From: Quadrisphaera setariae | GTDB lineage: Bacteria; Actinomycetota; Actinomycetes; Actinomycetales; Quadrisphaeraceae | NCBI RefSeq assembly: GCF_008041935.1 | Contig: NZ_VKAC01000001.1 | Coordinates: forward strand, 434,001-498,000 | Direction of reading: 5' to 3' | Length of the DNA: 64,000 nucleotides | Shown here: in pieces, positions 5,870 to 13,270 of the stretch | How the letters are laid out: every line of letters starts with the position of its first letter | Numbering within the stretch: the stretch's first letter is position 1 | The notes under the pieces: model-generated | Database searches by the model: none | Told to the model about the DNA's origin: nothing | Seen by the model: only the letters and a program-made list of their open reading frames with translations | Translations under genes and position numbers: made by a program

Positions 5870-6937
5870 TCAGGCGGACGTCCTCACCACCCCGTGAGGG
5901 GGAGGTGGTGCCACCACCACGCGGGCGTCGGCGCGGGCCACGGCCACGGCGTGCGGCACCGTCAGGCACAGCACCGCGGCCAGGCCCGTGACCAGCACTT
6001 GCGCTCCGCCGAGGGTCACGAGCGCCACCAGGCCGACCACCGACACCGCGGTGGGCAGCGCCGCCTGCCGCACGAAGCCGCGCAGCGCCGCGCGGGTGCC
6101 GAGGTGGTCGTGCGCGGCGTCGGAGGCCACCATCCGCGCCACCTGGCGCCAGGAGTGCCACAGGCCGAAGTAGACGGCGAAGGCCAGCAGGGGCGTGACC
6201 ACGGCGCACAGCGCCACGAGCAGCAGCGGCTCCAGCGCCGCGGCAGGTCGGCGCTGCAGCGCAGCGGCCACCACCACCGCGGCCGCGGCCGCGAGCACCA
6301 CGGGCACCGCCGCGCGCGCCACGGAGGCCACGGCCGCGCCGCGGCCCCCCGACAGCCCGTCGAGGACGGCGGACACCGCACCGCCGTGCAGCCCGAGGGT
6401 GAGGACGACGGGTGGACCGCCCAGCGCCACCACCCGGACCGCCCGCAGCACGCGGCCGGGGCCGGGGGTGGCGGAGCCCGTCCACCTGGCGGTGACCGCG
6501 TCGGCGGTGCCGAAGTGCACGACCGCCAGCGCCAGCAGCCCCAGCAGGACGGGCAGCGGCGCCACCAGCCAGGCGGTGAACGCCGCCGCGGCGGTGAGCA
6601 GGTAGACCGCGGCGGCCGCGGCGCGACGACCGCGGGACCCGGTGGCCCCGGTCTCGGGGCGCACCAGGTCGACGGCGCCGTGGGGCAGTCCCACCAGCAG
6701 GCTCACCACCAGCAGCGGGGCGAGCGCCGGGCCGGCCGACAGGCCCGGACCCGCCAGCTGGGGGAGCAGCCGGCCGGGCGGCGTCGCAGCGGCTGCGACG
6801 AGCGTGCAGCCCGCCGCGGCCGCCCACGGGACGTGCAGGACGGCGACCCGCCACCTCGCCGCGCGCGGCAGCACCTGGGAGACCGCGGGCGCGTGCGTGA
6901 GCGGCGCGGCGCTGGCGGTCGCCGTCCTGGTGGTCAT
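5870..6937 (-). CDS. blh: Brp/Blh-type beta-carotene 15,15'-dioxygenase
   Basis: Polytopic membrane enzyme of 355 residues that, in characterised homologues, cleaves beta-carotene to two retinals, the rhodopsin chromophore. Family signatures with conserved His are present: GLPHGAVDL in the second helix, VVHFGTADAV mid-protein, YFGLWHSWRQVAR and the late VPHAVAV. The ATG overlaps the rhodopsin stop (ATGA on the minus strand), so opsin and chromophore supply are co-translated. No lycopene cyclase or other carotenoid gene is in the window, so the beta-carotene precursor must be made elsewhere. Confidence 0.93.
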   Translation of the reverse strand: MTTRTATASAAPLTHAPAVSQVLPRAARWRVAVLHVPWAAAAGCTLVAAAATPPGRLLPQLAGPGLSAGPALAPLLVVSLLVGLPHGAVDLVRPETGATGSRGRRAAAAAVYLLTAAAAFTAWLVAPLPVLLGLLALAVVHFGTADAVTARWTGSATPGPGRVLRAVRVVALGGPPVVLTLGLHGGAVSAVLDGLSGGRGAAVASVARAAVPVVLAAAAAVVVAAALQRRPAAALEPLLLVALCAVVTPLLAFAVYFGLWHSWRQVARMVASDAAHDHLGTRAALRGFVRQAALPTAVSVVGLVALVTLGGAQVLVTGLAAVLCLTVPHAVAVARADARVVVAPPPPHGVVRTSA

Positions 6938-7905
6938 CGGCGGGTCTGGCGGTGGCCGTTCGCGGACGGAGCGCCGGCGCCGGCGCCGACGGGCGCCTCG
7001 GCGGAGACCAGTCGCGGCGTGGAGACGAGCTCACCGGAGATCCACACGACCCCGGCCACGGAGTCCGGGGCGGTCGAGGCGACGGCCTCGTCGGCGCCGC
7101 CGCCAGCTCGGCGGGCGTCCTCGGCGGTGCGCAGCTTGGCGACCTTGTGGATCAGCACGCCGAAGCCGGCCTTGGCGGCGATGTCGGCGAAGGTGAAGAC
7201 CAGCTGCTCGGTGGTGCCCCAGGCGCCCGGGTTCGAGCTGGCCCACACCGGGACCAGGTAGGCCAGCGGGTAGGCGCCGAAGACGCTGAAGAGGAGCACG
7301 AGCGCGTTGCGGTAGCTGGTGCGGGCCTCGTCGCCGACGGCCGGGGCCGTGGCGCGGTACGCCTGCCAGGCGACGACGTAGAGCACCACGAAGAAGACGG
7401 TGCTGATGGCGCCCCAGACCCACAGCGCCGCGGTGGTGCTCCCGCCGCCGGCGCCGTAGACCACACCGAGGTAGCCGGTGGCGATCATGAGGAACGCCGA
7501 GGCGATGCCGACGGTCCGCCAGCGCAGGGCCTGCGCCCGCGTGAGGACGGCGACCGCCAGGAGCTCGCACACGAGCATCGGCACGGTGACCGACCAGTCC
7601 ATGTACCGCAGTTCGGTGACCACGGTGCCGGGGTCGGGCGTGTAGGTGGAGCCGTCAGCCGAGGCGGTGAAGCCCAGCACCCACTCCAGCAGCAGCGCGA
7701 GGTAGGCCAGCGAGGCCACCCAGCAGATGGCCGTGCTCGCGACGGCGGCACCGCGGTACTGGCGCGCCACCTCGTTGCGCGTGCTGGCCCCGTAGAGCCC
7801 GGTGGCGAAGAGCGCGAAGAGCGCGACGACGAAGCCGTACAGCACCAGGTGGTACTGGGCGGCGGTGTAGGTGGTGGTGGCGGTGAACTCGGCGGAGGTG
7901 AGCAC
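6934..7905 (-). CDS. Microbial rhodopsin, predicted green-absorbing outward proton pump with antenna fenestration
   Basis: Seven-helix retinal protein of 323 residues. Helix C has R100, D103 (Schiff-base proton acceptor), T107 and E114 (donor), the DTE set of proteorhodopsin-type proton pumps. Helix G has D241 and the retinal-binding K245 (DIAAKAGFG). L111 sits where residue 105 of proteorhodopsin tunes colour; Leu there goes with green absorption. In helix E, WVWGAIST aligns with WWAIST of bacteriorhodopsin, placing G165 where bulky W138 would be; this matches the glycine opening that lets xanthorhodopsin bind an antenna carotenoid. No His is visible in helix B. About 65 residues follow helix G. 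The GTG start is preceded by GAGGGG with 6-nt spacing. It is coupled to blh and divergent from the MarR-PP2C gene. Confidence 0.95.
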   Translation of the reverse strand: MLTSAEFTATTTYTAAQYHLVLYGFVVALFALFATGLYGASTRNEVARQYRGAAVASTAICWVASLAYLALLLEWVLGFTASADGSTYTPDPGTVVTELRYMDWSVTVPMLVCELLAVAVLTRAQALRWRTVGIASAFLMIATGYLGVVYGAGGGSTTAALWVWGAISTVFFVVLYVVAWQAYRATAPAVGDEARTSYRNALVLLFSVFGAYPLAYLVPVWASSNPGAWGTTEQLVFTFADIAAKAGFGVLIHKVAKLRTAEDARRAGGGADEAVASTAPDSVAGVVWISGELVSTPRLVSAEAPVGAGAGAPSANGHRQTRR

Positions 7906-7965: not shown

Positions 7966-7986
7966 ACTTTTGCGATGTGCAAAGGT
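7966..7986. promoter_or_regulatory. 21-bp inverted repeat, candidate operator between rhodopsin and MarR-PP2C genes
   Basis: ACTTTTGC-GATGT-GCAAAGGT: 8-bp arms with one mismatch, the core TTTGC/GCAAA being perfect. It is a markedly AT-rich island in otherwise very GC-rich DNA, between two divergent genes, one of which encodes a MarR-type DNA-binding domain. The size and symmetry fit a MarR-dimer site. Binding is inferred. Confidence 0.6.
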
Positions 7987-8055: not shown

Positions 8056-8070
8056 CACAGTGCGGTGGTG
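8056..8070 (+). promoter_or_regulatory. Candidate leaderless -10 box for the MarR-PP2C gene
   Basis: CACAGT, then GCGGTG (6 nt), then the GTG at 8068. There is no Shine-Dalgarno. The arrangement matches the other putative leaderless starts in this window and favours 8068 over the adjacent in-frame GTG at 8065. Confidence 0.45.
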
Positions 8071-9798
8071 GACGACGACGACGAGCGGATCCTCGGGGCT
8101 GCCGCGGGCCGGGTCGTCGACCTCGTCACCGCCGCCGCAGCCGAGCTCGACGCAGGTCTGACCCCGCCCCAGCTGCGCGTGGTGGCCGTGCTGCACGAGC
8201 AGGGGCCGAGCAGCGTCTCCACCGTCGCCGCGGCCACGCGCTCGTCGGTCTCGACCGCCTCGCGCACGGCCGACCGCCTCTCCGCCCTGGGCCTGCTGGA
8301 GCGCGTCGAGGCCCCGGATGACCGCCGGGAGGTGCTGCTGCGGCTCACGCGCCGCGGCAGGTCGACGGCGCAGGAGTGGGTGCAGCGGCGCTCCGACGCC
8401 GTCGCCGGCGCCCTGCAGGCGTGGCCGCCCGAGCACCGGGCGGCGCTGGTCGGCCTGCTGAGGAGCGACCCGGCCGTGCCGGCCGTGCCGGCCGTGCTGC
8501 CGGGCGGTGCGGGTGGACCCGTCGCGCCCGCTGCGCTGCGCTCGGCGATGCTCGAGGCGGTGCACGCCGCCGAGCCCCACCGGGCGCTCGCGGCGCTGTG
8601 TGCGGCCGCCGCGGCCGCCCTGGGGGCGAGGGCAGCGCAGCTGCTGCTGCTCAGCCGCTCCGGCTCCGAGCTGCTGCCGGCCCCGCCCGCCGGGACCGGC
8701 CCCCTCGACGGGCTGCCCACGGCACCCGTGCCTGTCGACAGCGGCTCCCGCGCGGCGGAGGCGCTGCGCGGCAGCACCCCGCTGCTGGAGCACGACGGGC
8801 GGCGTCGCCTCGCGCACGCGCCGGTCCTCGGGCGGCGGGAGGTGGTCGGCGTCCTCACCGCGGTGCTGCCCGGCCGCCCGGGCGGGGCGGACGGCGCCCA
8901 GAGGGCCGACGGCGGAGACGGCGAGGACGGTGAGGACGCCGCCCTGCTCGACGCGGTGCGGGTGTGCGCGGACGCGGTGGCCCTGCTGCTCCCGGCGGCC
9001 AGCGCGGGCGACCGCCGCCTGGAGCAGAGCCGTCGCGACCACGAGTGGACCGTCTCGGCCGAGGTGCAGGACCGCCAGCTCGGGCCCAGCCGCCTGGCGA
9101 CGCCGGCCGTGGTGGCGGCAGCGCAGCTGCAGCCGGCGTGGTCGGTCTGCACCGACGCGCACGACCTCGACGTCGTCGCCACCGGGGCCGACGCCGGCGC
9201 CGTCGACGCCGTGCTGCTGGACTGCCGCTCGGGCCGGCGCACCGCGCCGCTGGCCGCGGCGGTGGCGCTCGCGGCGCTGCGCCACGCGCGCGGGCTCGGA
9301 CGGGACCTCTCCCGCGCGGCGTCCCTGGCCGACGAGGCGGTCTTCGACGCCTTCGGCGGCGCGGCGGCCGTCGACCTGGTGCTCGTGCGCGTCGCGAGGG
9401 ACGGGGGCTCCGCGGTGGTGCTGGCCACCGAGCTCTTCACCGCGCACCGGCTCCGGGACGGTGTGGTCGAGGAGCTGCCGCTCGCGGTGCACGAGGCGGC
9501 GGGTGGCACGGGCGGCGCCCAGTACGTCGAGCATCCCCTCGACCTCCGGGAGGGTGACCGCCTGGTGCTGGTCGGGGACGGCGCAGGCCGCCGGACCGCT
9601 GCCGGGGGCGGGACCGCCGAGGACGCGTCTGCGGTGGAGGGCCTGCTGCTGGAGACCGCCGCAGCCGCCCCCCACGAGGTGGTCCGGCGGCTGGCCCTGG
9701 CGCCCGCGTCCCACGACCCCGAGCCCCAGGAGGACGCCACCGCGGTCTGCCTCGACCTGCTCGGTGACGGCGGGGAGGTTGCGGTCCTGCAACGATGA
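8068..9798 (+). CDS. MarR-type regulator fused to a GAF-like and PP2C/SpoIIE-like domain
   Basis: Protein of 576 residues. Residues ~5-120 form a MarR winged helix: LTPPQLRVVAVLHEQG, recognition helix around SSVSTASRTADRLSALGLLER, wing APDDRREVLLRLT. Residues ~150-310 look like a GAF or related sensor fold. Residues ~330-570 resemble a SpoIIE/PP2C phosphatase, but degenerately: the GGDxYD motif is CTDAHDLD (Asp residues kept), the GHG motif is replaced by SGRR, and a terminal EDATAV resembles the metal-binding DD-x-T. Catalysis is therefore uncertain; it may bind a ligand or a protein instead. It is divergent from the rhodopsin operon with a shared inverted repeat. MarR and PP2C modules are usually separate proteins, so this fusion is unusual. 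The weakest call is the GAF region. Confidence 0.75.
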   Translation: MDDDDERILGAAAGRVVDLVTAAAAELDAGLTPPQLRVVAVLHEQGPSSVSTVAAATRSSVSTASRTADRLSALGLLERVEAPDDRREVLLRLTRRGRSTAQEWVQRRSDAVAGALQAWPPEHRAALVGLLRSDPAVPAVPAVLPGGAGGPVAPAALRSAMLEAVHAAEPHRALAALCAAAAAALGARAAQLLLLSRSGSELLPAPPAGTGPLDGLPTAPVPVDSGSRAAEALRGSTPLLEHDGRRRLAHAPVLGRREVVGVLTAVLPGRPGGADGAQRADGGDGEDGEDAALLDAVRVCADAVALLLPAASAGDRRLEQSRRDHEWTVSAEVQDRQLGPSRLATPAVVAAAQLQPAWSVCTDAHDLDVVATGADAGAVDAVLLDCRSGRRTAPLAAAVALAALRHARGLGRDLSRAASLADEAVFDAFGGAAAVDLVLVRVARDGGSAVVLATELFTAHRLRDGVVEELPLAVHEAAGGTGGAQYVEHPLDLREGDRLVLVGDGAGRRTAAGGGTAEDASAVEGLLLETAAAAPHEVVRRLALAPASHDPEPQEDATAVCLDLLGDGGEVAVLQR

Positions 9799-9877: not shown

Positions 9878-9892
9878 TAGCGTCGCCGGGTG
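9878..9892 (+). promoter_or_regulatory. Leaderless promoter of the BCCT gene
   Basis: TAGCGT (-10), CGCCGG (6 nt), then the GTG start. No Shine-Dalgarno precedes it. The 15-nt string TAGCGTCGCCGGGTG recurs exactly at 11729 before thrE. Confidence 0.6.
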
Positions 9893-11653
9893 ATCGAAGC
9901 TCCCGGCACCGCGCAGGACAGCCCACCGAGCACGCCTCCCGCACCGCCCCCGGCGGTAGGACGCGACCTCTCCGGGAAGCGCGTCGTCCGGTGGGTCTTC
10001 TGGCCGGCGGCCGCCGTCGTCGTGGGGCTGAGCGTCTTCGCGATGGTCCTCCCCGACAGCGCGAACACCTTCTTCGGCGCCGCCTCCTCCGCCGTCGTCG
10101 CCACCTTCAGCTGGTACTACGTGCTCATCGCCGCCTTCTTCGTGGCGTTCGCGCTGGCCATGGGCTTCAGCCGCTTCGGCGACATCAAGCTGGGGCGCGA
10201 CGAGGAGGAGCCCGAGTTCTCGGCCCTCGCGTGGTTCGCCCTGCTCTTCGCCGCCGGCATGGGCATCGGGCTGGTCTTCTACGGCGCCAGCGAGCCCCTC
10301 AGCCACTACGTCGACCCGCCGCCGGGCAGCACGGCCACCACCGGTCCGCAGCAGGCCCTGGCCGCCCTCTCCCAGACCTACCTGCACTGGGGCCTGCACG
10401 CCTGGGCCATCTACGTGGTGGTCGGCCTGGCGCTGGCGTACGCCATCCACCGACGCGGCCGGCCGATCTCGCTGCGCTACGCGCTGGAGCCGCTCCTCGG
10501 CCGTCGGATCCACGGGGGCTGGGGCAACGCCATCGACGCCCTCGCGCTGATCGGCACCGTGTTCGGCGTGGCCACCTCCCTCGGCCTGGGCGTGCTGCAG
10601 ATCGGCAGCGGTCTGGAGGTCGTGGGGCTGCCGGAGCTCGGGGCCTGGGCCAACGTCGGCATCATCGCCGTGATCACCGTCTTCGTGCTCGCCTCGGTGC
10701 TGTCCGGGGTCACCAAGGGCATGAAGTGGCTCTCCACCGCCAACCTGCTGCTCGCCGCCGCGCTGCTGGTGTTCGTCCTCTTCGCAGGTCCCACCGTGAC
10801 CGTGCTCCGCGAGATGGTGCAGTCCCTGGGCGCCTACCTCCAGGGCTTCGTCGGGCTGGCCTTCAGCGTCAGCGCGCTCCAGGGCCCCGAGGGGGAGGCC
10901 TTCCAGGGCGGCTGGACCTCCTTCTACTGGGGCTGGTGGATGTCGTGGGCGCCCTTCGTGGGCGTCTTCATCGCCCGCGTCAGCCGAGGCCGTACCGTCC
11001 GCGAGTTCGTCCTGGGCGTGCTGCTGGTCCCCACGCTGCTGACGGTCGCCTGGTTCTCCGTCATCGGCGGCACCGCGGTGGTCCGCGAGCTGCGAGAGCC
11101 CGGGTCGATGCTCACGCCCGAGGGGACCGTGGACCTGCAGGGTGCGCTCTTCCAGCTCTTCGAGGCCCTGCCGGGCGCCCCGGTGCTCGTGGTGGGCGCG
11201 ATCCTGCTCATCGTCGTCTTCTTCGTCACCTCCGCCGACTCCGGCGCGCTGGTCATGGGCATGATCGCCACCGGCGGGTCGGCCGAGCCGGCGCGCTGGG
11301 TGCGCGTGTTCTTCACCCTGGCCACCGCCGTCCTCGCGAGCGCGCTGCTGGTCGCGGGCGGCTCGGACGGGCTGACCGCGCTGCAGAGCGCGGCGATCAT
11401 GGTGGCGCTGCCGTTCAGCGTGGTGATGCTGCTCATGTGCTGGGCCACCGTCATCGCCTTCCGCCGCGAGCGGCGCCTGTACGACAGGGCGCAGCGCGGC
11501 CAGCTGCTGGCGCAGATCGGCGACCACTACGGCCTGGAGGTCGAGGGGCCCAACGAGGGCGGCTGGGGCACTCCCCGGTGGACGCGCCGCCGTGCGCCGC
11601 GCCCGCCGCGCGGCACCCGCGCCGCGTCGGACGCTCCGGACCAGCGAGACTGA
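9890..11653 (+). CDS. BCCT-family glycine betaine / osmolyte transporter
   Basis: Sodium-coupled secondary transporter of 587 residues with about 12 helices. The glycine-rich unwound helix reads GMGIG (123-127) followed by FYGASEPLSHY, as in the Na+-coupled betaine carrier BetP; the proton-coupled or antiport members (BetT, CaiT) have Asp at the last position. The Trp-rich segment SFYWGWWMSWAPFVG and the GRTVREFVLGVL loop are also typical. The basic C-terminal tail (RWTRRRAPRPPRG) could be an osmosensing extension like that of BetP, by inference. The leaderless GTG start follows a TAGCGT box. It stands alone, probably for osmotic-stress uptake. Confidence 0.93.
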   Translation: MIEAPGTAQDSPPSTPPAPPPAVGRDLSGKRVVRWVFWPAAAVVVGLSVFAMVLPDSANTFFGAASSAVVATFSWYYVLIAAFFVAFALAMGFSRFGDIKLGRDEEEPEFSALAWFALLFAAGMGIGLVFYGASEPLSHYVDPPPGSTATTGPQQALAALSQTYLHWGLHAWAIYVVVGLALAYAIHRRGRPISLRYALEPLLGRRIHGGWGNAIDALALIGTVFGVATSLGLGVLQIGSGLEVVGLPELGAWANVGIIAVITVFVLASVLSGVTKGMKWLSTANLLLAAALLVFVLFAGPTVTVLREMVQSLGAYLQGFVGLAFSVSALQGPEGEAFQGGWTSFYWGWWMSWAPFVGVFIARVSRGRTVREFVLGVLLVPTLLTVAWFSVIGGTAVVRELREPGSMLTPEGTVDLQGALFQLFEALPGAPVLVVGAILLIVVFFVTSADSGALVMGMIATGGSAEPARWVRVFFTLATAVLASALLVAGGSDGLTALQSAAIMVALPFSVVMLLMCWATVIAFRRERRLYDRAQRGQLLAQIGDHYGLEVEGPNEGGWGTPRWTRRRAPRPPRGTRAASDAPDQRD

Positions 11654-11728: not shown

Positions 11729-11743
11729 TAGCGTCGCCGGGTG
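11729..11743 (+). promoter_or_regulatory. Leaderless promoter of the thrE-like gene
   Basis: TAGCGT, CGCCGG (6 nt), GTG start. It is identical over 15 nt to the site at 9878. Confidence 0.6.
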
Positions 11744-13270
11744 ACCTCCCGCCCGGTCGAGCGCCGAGGTGGCCGCGCGGCGCCGGTCGCGCGCGGCTCC
11801 CACGCCGCCGACCCGCCTCCTGCGGACCCCCGCGGTCGCCGCCGGCAGCTGCTGGCGCGCCTCGGCGAGCAGATGAGCGGCAGCGCCCCCGTCAGCCCGG
11901 TCGGACGGCGGGCCCAGCGGGCCCGGCTCGTCGAGCAGCAGGTGCGCGAGGTCCTCGAGGTGTCCGTGCGTTTCGGGGAGGCGATGCTCTCCCTCGGCGC
12001 CACGGCCTCCGCCTCCGTGGAGGTGATCCGCCGCACCTGCGCCGCGTTCGGGCTCGAGTGCCAGGTGGACATCACCTTCACCGCCATCCTCGTGGCCCAC
12101 GACGGCGCCGACGCCGGCACCGTCAGCGTGCTGCGGGTGGTGCAGAGCCGCGCCGCCGACTACCACCGCCTGTCCCGGCTGGCGGCCCTCGCGCACGACG
12201 TGCAGGCAGACCCCGGTACGCCGGTGGGAGACGCTGCGGACGACCCCGACGCCCGCGAGGCGGTGCACCAGCGCCTGGAGCGCGTGCACGCCCGCCTCGA
12301 CGAGGTGCTCGGCGCCCCGCACCGCTACCGTCCCGCGCTGGTCACCGCGTCGCTGGCGCTGATGGCCGCGAGCGTGGCGGTGCTGCTCGGCGGTGGCGTG
12401 CCCGTGGTGCTGCTCTCGGCCGCCACCACCGCCGCCGTCGACCTCGTGCTGCGCCGCCTGGGCAGCTGGGGGCTGCCGTCGTTCTTCCTGCAGGCGGCGG
12501 GCGCCGCGATGGCCACCACCGTGGCGGTGGCGCTGCTGGCGCTGCCCGGCCTGCCGGTGGAGCTGCAGGCGCTGCCACCGTCGCTGGTGGTGGCCTCCGG
12601 GATCATCGCGCTGCTGGCGGGGCTGTCGCTGGTGGGCGCCGCCGACGACGCCATCAACGGCTTCCTCGTCACCGCCAGCGGCCGCCTGCTCGAGGTGCTG
12701 CTGCTGACGCTCGGCCTGGTGGTCGGCATCGGCGGGGTGCTCGACGTGGCCAACCGCCTGGGCGTGCAGCTGGTCATCTCCGACACCTCCGCCGCCCCGT
12801 GGCCGCTCGCGGTGCAGGTGGTGGCCGCGGCCGCGGCGTCGGGTGCGTGGGCGGCGTCGTCGTTCGCCGGACCGCGCGCCGCCGCCCAGGCGGCGGCGTG
12901 GGGCGCGCTCGGCTACGTGGTCTCGGCGCTGCTCGTCGGGGCGGGGGCTGCGGCGGCGGTGGGCGCGGCGCTGGCCGCGCTCGTGGTCGGGTACGGGGCG
13001 GAGTCGCTGGCGCTGCGCACCCGCGTCCCCGCCGCGGTCACCGCGACCTGCGCGATCGTGCCGCTGCTGCCGGGCCTGACCATCTACCAGGGGCTGTTCG
13101 CGATGATCAGCGGCGCTCCTCCCGGCACGGGTGGCGGGCTGCTGCTGCGGGCCGCCATGATCGGCATCGGGCTGGCCGCTGGCACCACGCTGGGCACCAC
13201 CCTGGCCGACCGCGCCCGCGCCGCGCGCCGGCGCCGCCCCGCGGACGCCGCCGCCCCCGGCGCCGGCTGA
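11741..13270 (+). CDS. thrE: Threonine/serine exporter, ThrE family (fused ThrE and ThrE_2 halves)
   Basis: Membrane exporter of 509 residues. About 130 residues of hydrophilic N-terminus (conserved FGEAMLSLGATASASVEVIRRTCAAFGL, given here in part: FGEAMLSLGA) precede roughly ten helices in two half-domains, the arrangement of Corynebacterium ThrE. The second half contains the characteristic TCAIVPLLPGLTIYQGLFAM-type segment (VPLLPGLTIYQG). The gene starts at a GTG with a TAGCGT box 6 nt upstream and ends 13 nt before a convergent small gene. Likely exported substrates are L-threonine and L-serine or small peptides, from family knowledge. Confidence 0.9.
   Translation: MTSRPVERRGGRAAPVARGSHAADPPPADPRGRRRQLLARLGEQMSGSAPVSPVGRRAQRARLVEQQVREVLEVSVRFGEAMLSLGATASASVEVIRRTCAAFGLECQVDITFTAILVAHDGADAGTVSVLRVVQSRAADYHRLSRLAALAHDVQADPGTPVGDAADDPDAREAVHQRLERVHARLDEVLGAPHRYRPALVTASLALMAASVAVLLGGGVPVVLLSAATTAAVDLVLRRLGSWGLPSFFLQAAGAAMATTVAVALLALPGLPVELQALPPSLVVASGIIALLAGLSLVGAADDAINGFLVTASGRLLEVLLLTLGLVVGIGGVLDVANRLGVQLVISDTSAAPWPLAVQVVAAAAASGAWAASSFAGPRAAAQAAAWGALGYVVSALLVGAGAAAAVGAALAALVVGYGAESLALRTRVPAAVTATCAIVPLLPGLTIYQGLFAMISGAPPGTGGGLLLRAAMIGIGLAAGTTLGTTLADRARAARRRRPADAAAPGAG

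Follow-up and report, generated by a model that had tools for sequence, protein, structure and literature searches.

We report a one-chain fusion of a MarR DNA-binding domain, a GAF-like region and a SpoIIE/PP2C-like domain, encoded divergently from the opsin operon of Quadrisphaera setariae. The MarR/PP2C-like fusion is real. That it regulates the opsin operon we judge quite probable from the sequence comparisons below, and a dedicated switch for the pump is probable because the same gene pair and a common DNA site recur in relatives. The PP2C-like domain, judging by its motif residues, is probably non-catalytic. The full reading, in which the fusion would be a dedicated regulator of the opsin operon that also regulates its own gene and has a non-catalytic PP2C-like domain, is the one that we favour with moderate confidence.

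A MarR/PP2C-like fusion divergent from the opsin operon

We analysed a stretch of 64,000 bases (contig NZ_VKAC01000001.1, positions 434,001 to 498,000), hereafter the window, whose features are collected in Table 1. The regulator gene is a single open frame of 576 codons plus stop. The N-terminal MarR winged helix recognized in an earlier note on this DNA was confirmed by two Pfam models: in addition to MarR_2, MarR matches the same residues at 4.3e-11, and both scores exceed the curated cut-offs (47.6 bits versus 27 for MarR_2, 43 versus 24.6 for MarR). The wing motif DDRREVLLRLTRRG overlaps the end of this stretch. The C-terminal PP2C motifs, which the earlier note had called partial, were likewise borne out. 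In the alignment, CTDAHDLD takes the place of the GDxFD motif of SpoIIE-type phosphatases and EDATAV that of their DDAT motif; SpoIIE (PF07228) matches at 3.1e-8 over profile positions 19-190 of 192, which amounts to a whole-domain match. Motif residues D363 and D385 lie just ahead of the Pfam stretch, and D504 and E555 lie within it. A profile built from 15 C-terminal proteins (4 fusions and 11 standalone) finds solved SpoIIE-type phosphatases in the PDB with a best value of 1.7e-12, and all 15 match SpoIIE in Pfam. The assignment of the middle region to GAF is weak: this region has no Pfam match in the window protein, the GAF domain is matched by three of the 15 aligned proteins (best 4e-5), and from this we infer the label GAF-like. 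An AlphaFold prediction from the single sequence, without relatives, gave a pLDDT of 37.

Table 1 Coordinates of the fusion regulator, its domains and its neighbours in the window, with the standalone W-type loci used for comparison
Feature	Position	Strand	Basis
MarR / GAF-like / SpoIIE-PP2C-like fusion regulator	8068..9798	+	GTG start, 576 aa; 3 full-length relatives
MarR winged helix, residues 30-89	8155..8334	+	Pfam MarR_2 1.9e-12; PDB MarR matches, best 5e-13
GAF-like middle region, about residues 152-310 (edges approximate)	8521..8997	+	homologous standalone proteins; GAF matched by 3 of the 15 aligned
SpoIIE/PP2C-like domain, residues 393-563	9244..9756	+	Pfam 34.2 bits, cut-off 25; motif alignment
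opsin, bacteriorhodopsin-type	6934..7905	-	Pfam 3.9e-30; DTE-type residues (RYMDWSVTVPMLVCE); retinal-Lys segment KAGFG
blh, Brp/Blh beta-carotene 15,15'-dioxygenase (retinal supply)	5870..6937	-	TIGR03753 1.8e-39, above cut-off; Pfam 2.3e-35
candidate operator TTTGCGATGTGCAA	7969..7982	.	TTGC-N5-GCAA at 7970-7982
W-type standalone loci	L064-L085, L087-L089, L112, L113, L116, L118, L128, L135, L143, L150		

A chance overlap of reading frames is ruled out by three full-length relatives, 39-41% identical to the window protein; together with the Pfam matches to both parts, they establish the fusion that the earlier note had proposed. A search of the window's own genome returned five matches including the fusion itself. 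The other four fall within query residues 3-174, the MarR part, and no paralogue of the fusion was found there.

The regulator gene is divergent from opsin and blh, with 162 bases between it and the opsin start, and the start of blh overlaps the end of opsin by 4 bases. By alignment, the opsin retains the Asp, Thr and Glu of the helix-C motif and the helix-G lysine segment, residues whose roles we take to be those of an outward proton pump. Actinorhodopsins of Quadrisphaera and Kineococcus are named as proton pumps in an excerpt of PMC5974397.

Two transporter genes lie downstream of the regulator on the same strand. Window 9890-11653 (+) encodes a BCCT betaine/carnitine/choline transporter (Pfam 3.9e-176), and window 11741-13270 (+) encodes a ThrE-type threonine/serine exporter (Pfam 1.7e-49).

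Linkage of the fusion to opsin genes

A survey of 396 genomes of the order gave five matches to the fusion at 1e-15. Four are full length (the window's genome, G011, G176 and G111) and span two families and two genera (f1/g1 and f14/g17); the fifth, in G060, covers the PP2C-like part alone. All four full-length fusions, the window's and its three relatives, are divergent from an opsin gene that is followed by blh. Since three other genomes repeat gene order and orientation, with proteins 39-41% identical, the association of fusion and opsin is not due to chance. The divergent arrangement described in the earlier note therefore holds throughout, and the check that it had proposed, conserved adjacency to opsin genes in relatives, came out positive for the regulator (four of four), although 17 of the 21 opsin loci of the order, found in 19 of the 396 genomes, are without it. 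Some of these opsin loci are truncated at contig ends; the fusion search of the order covered whole genomes. In a single-sequence search with the window opsin, the four regulator-linked opsins score above 430 bits versus 193 or less for 16 of the other 17; one locus, L096, was not picked up by this search and was found by Pfam and by profile.

At the family level, the fusion matches at 1e-15 in 2 of 13 genomes of the window's family, its own included. Within the window's genus the regulator occurs in two of six genomes, and the same two have the opsin. Opsin genes occur in 6 of 12 genomes from the family of G111, including both that carry the fusion. No further full-length fusion was seen among the matches listed from a class draw (394 genomes, threshold 1e-20) and a phylum draw (396 genomes, 1e-44), which overlap; the best non-self match among those listed covers model positions 157-562 only. 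With three candidates scored per genome in the order, class and phylum surveys, further fusions may exist beyond the four found. In at least 28 Streptomyces loci a contig scan showed matches confined to residues 38-170, and three scans of viral contigs found no relatives.

The patchy co-occurrence in the window's genus is compatible with transfer or loss of the gene pair. It would also suit a reading in which the fused MarR regulates only itself or distant genes, and the opsin linkage reflects hitch-hiking of a small, horizontally moved cassette. We consider this quite unlikely, given that the regulator stays beside the opsin and divergent from it in all four members at about 40% protein identity, and that the intergenic repeat described below is missing from the opsin loci without a regulator. 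Regulation of the opsin operon by the fusion is the reading that we keep.

Several further features of these loci were observed. The stretch of opsin residues 83-104 (window 7594-7659, -; ADGSTYTPDPGTVVTELRYMDW), before and into helix C, is well conserved in the four regulator-linked opsins; the other six aligned opsins have a different sequence there, of much the same length. In G060, the metal-intact GAF-like/PP2C protein at L041:1369-2625 (+) is the sole partial match of the order search at 1e-15, and the opsin of that genome is on another contig (G060:C101). Plain MarR genes are divergent from opsin at two fusion-free loci, L097:6788-7276 (+) and L101:5336-6130 (-), where the opsins are actinobacterial ones of another clade; in the MarR tree these two MarRs are sister to each other (support 100, starred).

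A candidate operator between the two genes

DNA binding between the opsin and regulator genes, as the earlier note had supposed, is supported by a conserved inverted repeat that probably marks the binding site. TTGC-N5-GCAA is present in all four opsin/regulator gaps, which measure 162, 326, 153 and 210 bases and hold TTGCGATGTGCAA, TTGCGACGTGCAA, TTGCGAGGCGCAA and TTGCGTCGCGCAA, respectively, read towards the regulator. Among common 21-mers, the best has 49 of 63 matches against the window (star score). With the window gap as reference and the other three gaps randomised with dinucleotides kept, 500 shuffle trials averaged 41.1 (sd 1.1, maximum 45), and none was as good as the real score. For the window and two other gaps only, the score was 34 versus a shuffle maximum of 31. 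A single match to TTTGCGNNGNGCAA, a string that three of the four loci fit, is present in the window (0.01 expected) and a single one in the whole 4.9-Mb genome. The looser TTGC-N5-GCAA likewise has one match in the window, against 0.08 expected. The palindrome was found in none of the 17 opsin loci without the regulator and in none of the 30 W-type loci that have a MarR gene within 700 bases (see below).

Across the four genomes TTGC-N5-GCAA occurs at 6, 5, 10 and 5 places, versus 2, 2, 25 and 11 for a reversed control. It is thus commoner than the control in two genomes and rarer in two, so that a regulon of such sites is not established and none is claimed. The repeat lies 32-218 bases from the opsin start and 85-165 bases from the regulator start in the four loci; because its position varies in this way, promoter occlusion is not established either. 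No sigma-70-type promoter was found by consensus.

As the repeat was identified by comparison only, it could be the site of another factor, such as a light-responsive regulator, with the fusion acting as a co-regulator or having lost DNA binding. This seems quite unlikely to us: the four fusions have identical recognition-helix and wing positions (VSTASR, DRLS, RREV, LTR), and the repeat tracks the presence of the regulator among the opsin loci. Binding of the repeat by the fusion itself is the reading carried forward here.

The PP2C-like domain and its metal site

An excerpt of PMC5468089 gives D628, D746 and D795, together with the G629 carbonyl, as the putative metal ligands of SpoIIE. By our own matching of SpoIIE residue numbers to fusion columns, the equivalents are D385, D504 and E555 (Q, R and E in the three relatives), with C386 at G629. 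All four fusions keep two of the three metal aspartates, D385 and D504, and the third reads E, Q, R and E; the three aspartates plus G629 that characterize an active SpoIIE-type phosphatase are therefore not all present in the fusion. In addition, the DxMGHG loop is lost in all four (DCRSGR, DCRTHR, DCRSQG, DCRSRG), and the GDxFD motif reads TDAHD, TDAHD, AEAHD and AEAHD. The altered third metal Asp, G629 equivalent and DxMGHG loop argue against normal catalysis, although they fall short of proof. At the third metal column the mildest change is the window's E555, which could still hold metal.

An active PP2C phosphatase would, with Mn or Mg, act on a STAS anti-anti-sigma factor or another phosphoprotein, with the MarR part positioning it or autoregulating. 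Such activity would fit the retention of D385 and D504 in four of four members, the acidic residue 363 in all four (D, D, E, E) and the acidic E555 column in two of four; STAS proteins, moreover, are common targets of SpoIIE-type domains according to an excerpt of PMC11418112. We nonetheless regard it as unlikely: two members have Q and R at the D795 equivalent, the G629 equivalent is Cys, the loop is gone, and no STAS gene is present among the six window proteins scanned by Pfam. A non-catalytic domain is the reading that we prefer. The earlier suggestion that light-driven pumping is regulated through DNA binding coupled to a phosphatase thus survives in part. Its link to the opsin operon stands in four of four members, and its DNA binding is made probable by the repeat; its phosphatase output, judged by the metal site and loop that are degenerate in the four fusions, is probably to be given up.

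Standalone MarR and PP2C-like gene pairs

The C-terminal two thirds of the fusion are homologous to standalone actinobacterial GAF-like/PP2C proteins. The class survey gave matches at 1e-20 in 99 of 394 genomes, some of them through the MarR part only. We compared 71 PP2C-like ORFs from 70 loci, comprising 29 from the class survey, one from the survey of G111's family and 40 selected down the class match list (not all listed). They were assigned by the residue after the second Asp to a W type (Trp, 34 ORFs) or a Y type (without Trp, 37 ORFs, one of whose rows reads X). Adjacency was taken as a match, within 700 bases of the domain, to a MarR model (E 1e-4) built from six MarR sequences including the four fusions, and all 71 ORFs were kept in the pairing count. 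A MarR gene was adjacent to 30 of the 34 W-type ORFs versus 2 of the 37 Y-type ORFs (Fisher p 2e-13, a value that overstates independence because a single genus contributes many of the rows). At the bridging metal position, 29 W-type ORFs have N, 4 have D and 1 has G; all 37 Y-type ORFs have D. For the 31 W-type ORFs whose locus has any MarR match, an automatic assignment, which may misplace some, classed 23 pairs as divergent, 6 as convergent and 2 as same-strand.

The earlier note held that MarR and PP2C-like modules normally belong to separate pathways. The MarR genes near 30 of 34 metal-altered GAF-like/PP2C genes speak against this for these bacteria and link the two modules independently of the fusion. 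W-type genes with a nearby MarR possibly form a two-gene MarR/pseudo-phosphatase module. A profile search found no opsin in any of the 70 standalone loci (3.4-6.1 kb each), while it recovered all 21 opsin loci.

The fusions resemble the W type in having a MarR partner, here in the same chain, and an altered metal site, though one altered differently: they keep the bridging Asp that the W type has mostly lost, and they lack the W-type GD(N/S)FDW and DDAL-type motifs, reading TDAHDL or AEAHDL (TDAHDT in L038) and (E/Q/R)DAT. In profile-profile comparison, the fusion profile matches eight W-type proteins at 2.8e-43, more closely than eight Y-type proteins at 5.1e-37. In the tree, which additionally includes L041, support is 37 for fusions with the W type and 90 for fusions with the Y type, the two values describing two sides of branches in one unrooted tree; the fusions group together on a long branch of their own (100, starred). 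Derivation of the fusion from a W-type pair was considered and is not demonstrated, given the separate clade and MarR parts that fall outside the W-paired MarRs in a poorly resolved tree. The fusion may be the one-chain form of a wider MarR/PP2C-like module, a point on which the trees do not decide.

Proposed mechanism and its meaning

We infer from these comparisons a one-component transcription factor dedicated to the opsin-blh operon, which would combine site binding by the fusion, repression, signal input and loss of activity. A MarR dimer, formed as in the family through N- and C-terminal helices, would occupy TTGC-N5-GCAA in the 162-base gap and control both its own gene and the opsin operon. 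Its action is probably repression, as assumed from MarR practice; most MarR proteins are repressors. The GAF-like and PP2C-like module would serve as the input by binding a small ligand or a partner protein, the signal perhaps being retinal or carotenoid status, metabolism or a protein partner. The signal would then pass via the helices joining the module to the MarR part and alter DNA binding, and the PP2C-like domain would most likely no longer dephosphorylate anything.

The open-licence literature yielded no account of MarR-family control of rhodopsin genes, of MarR/SpoIIE with rhodopsin or of opsin expression regulators, and none of divergent MarR/PP2C in Streptomyces; the fusion or MarR/PP2C pairing is not described in the excerpts of PMC12088040, PMC13118837 and PMC5468089 that we consulted. 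Bacterial control of opsin genes seems little described. Here it becomes directly testable, since one protein and one 13-base site can be named and four loci compared. More broadly, the frequency of nearby MarR genes among metal-altered PP2C-like proteins (30 of 34) suggests a phosphatase fold turned into a transcription-factor partner. If true, this would be an undescribed kind of one-component regulation, the PP2C fold having given up catalysis. The most general form of this idea, a non-catalytic PP2C fold as the sensor of a MarR repressor, existing as a two-gene pair across Actinomycetota and as one chain recruited to a light-driven proton pump with a dedicated operator, is tentative, and we would put it somewhat short of even.

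Comparison with known systems

The W-type systems share the domain order of the fusion after the MarR part. They consist of two genes without an opsin, whereas the fusion is one chain, and the fusion clade is not nested inside the W type with support. The plain MarR genes of L097 and L101 are alike in being divergent from opsin; unlike the fusion, they have no GAF-like/PP2C part and no TTGC-N5-GCAA site, and their products are set apart from the fusion MarRs in the poorly resolved tree.

With the SpoIIE/RsbU-type PP2C (PPM) phosphatases (PF07228; PDB 3t91, 5mqh, 5ucg), the fusion has in common the profile match and two of the three metal aspartates. It differs from them in its unconserved third metal Asp, the Cys at G629 and the lost DxMGHG loop, and it carries a DNA-binding domain.

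With the MarR family (PF01047/PF12802; E. coli MarR and Rv1404, PDB 2nyx), the fusion shares the winged helix, the divergent neighbour and a TTGC...GCAA repeat in the gap. The candidate TTGC-N5-GCAA site is similar to TTGC-N4-GCAA, which is present in the DNA of the E. coli MarR complex 5H3R according to an excerpt of PMC6480146. The PDB-matched MarR chains are about 140-210 aa long, whereas the fusion adds more than 400 residues in the form of a GAF-like/PP2C-like module.
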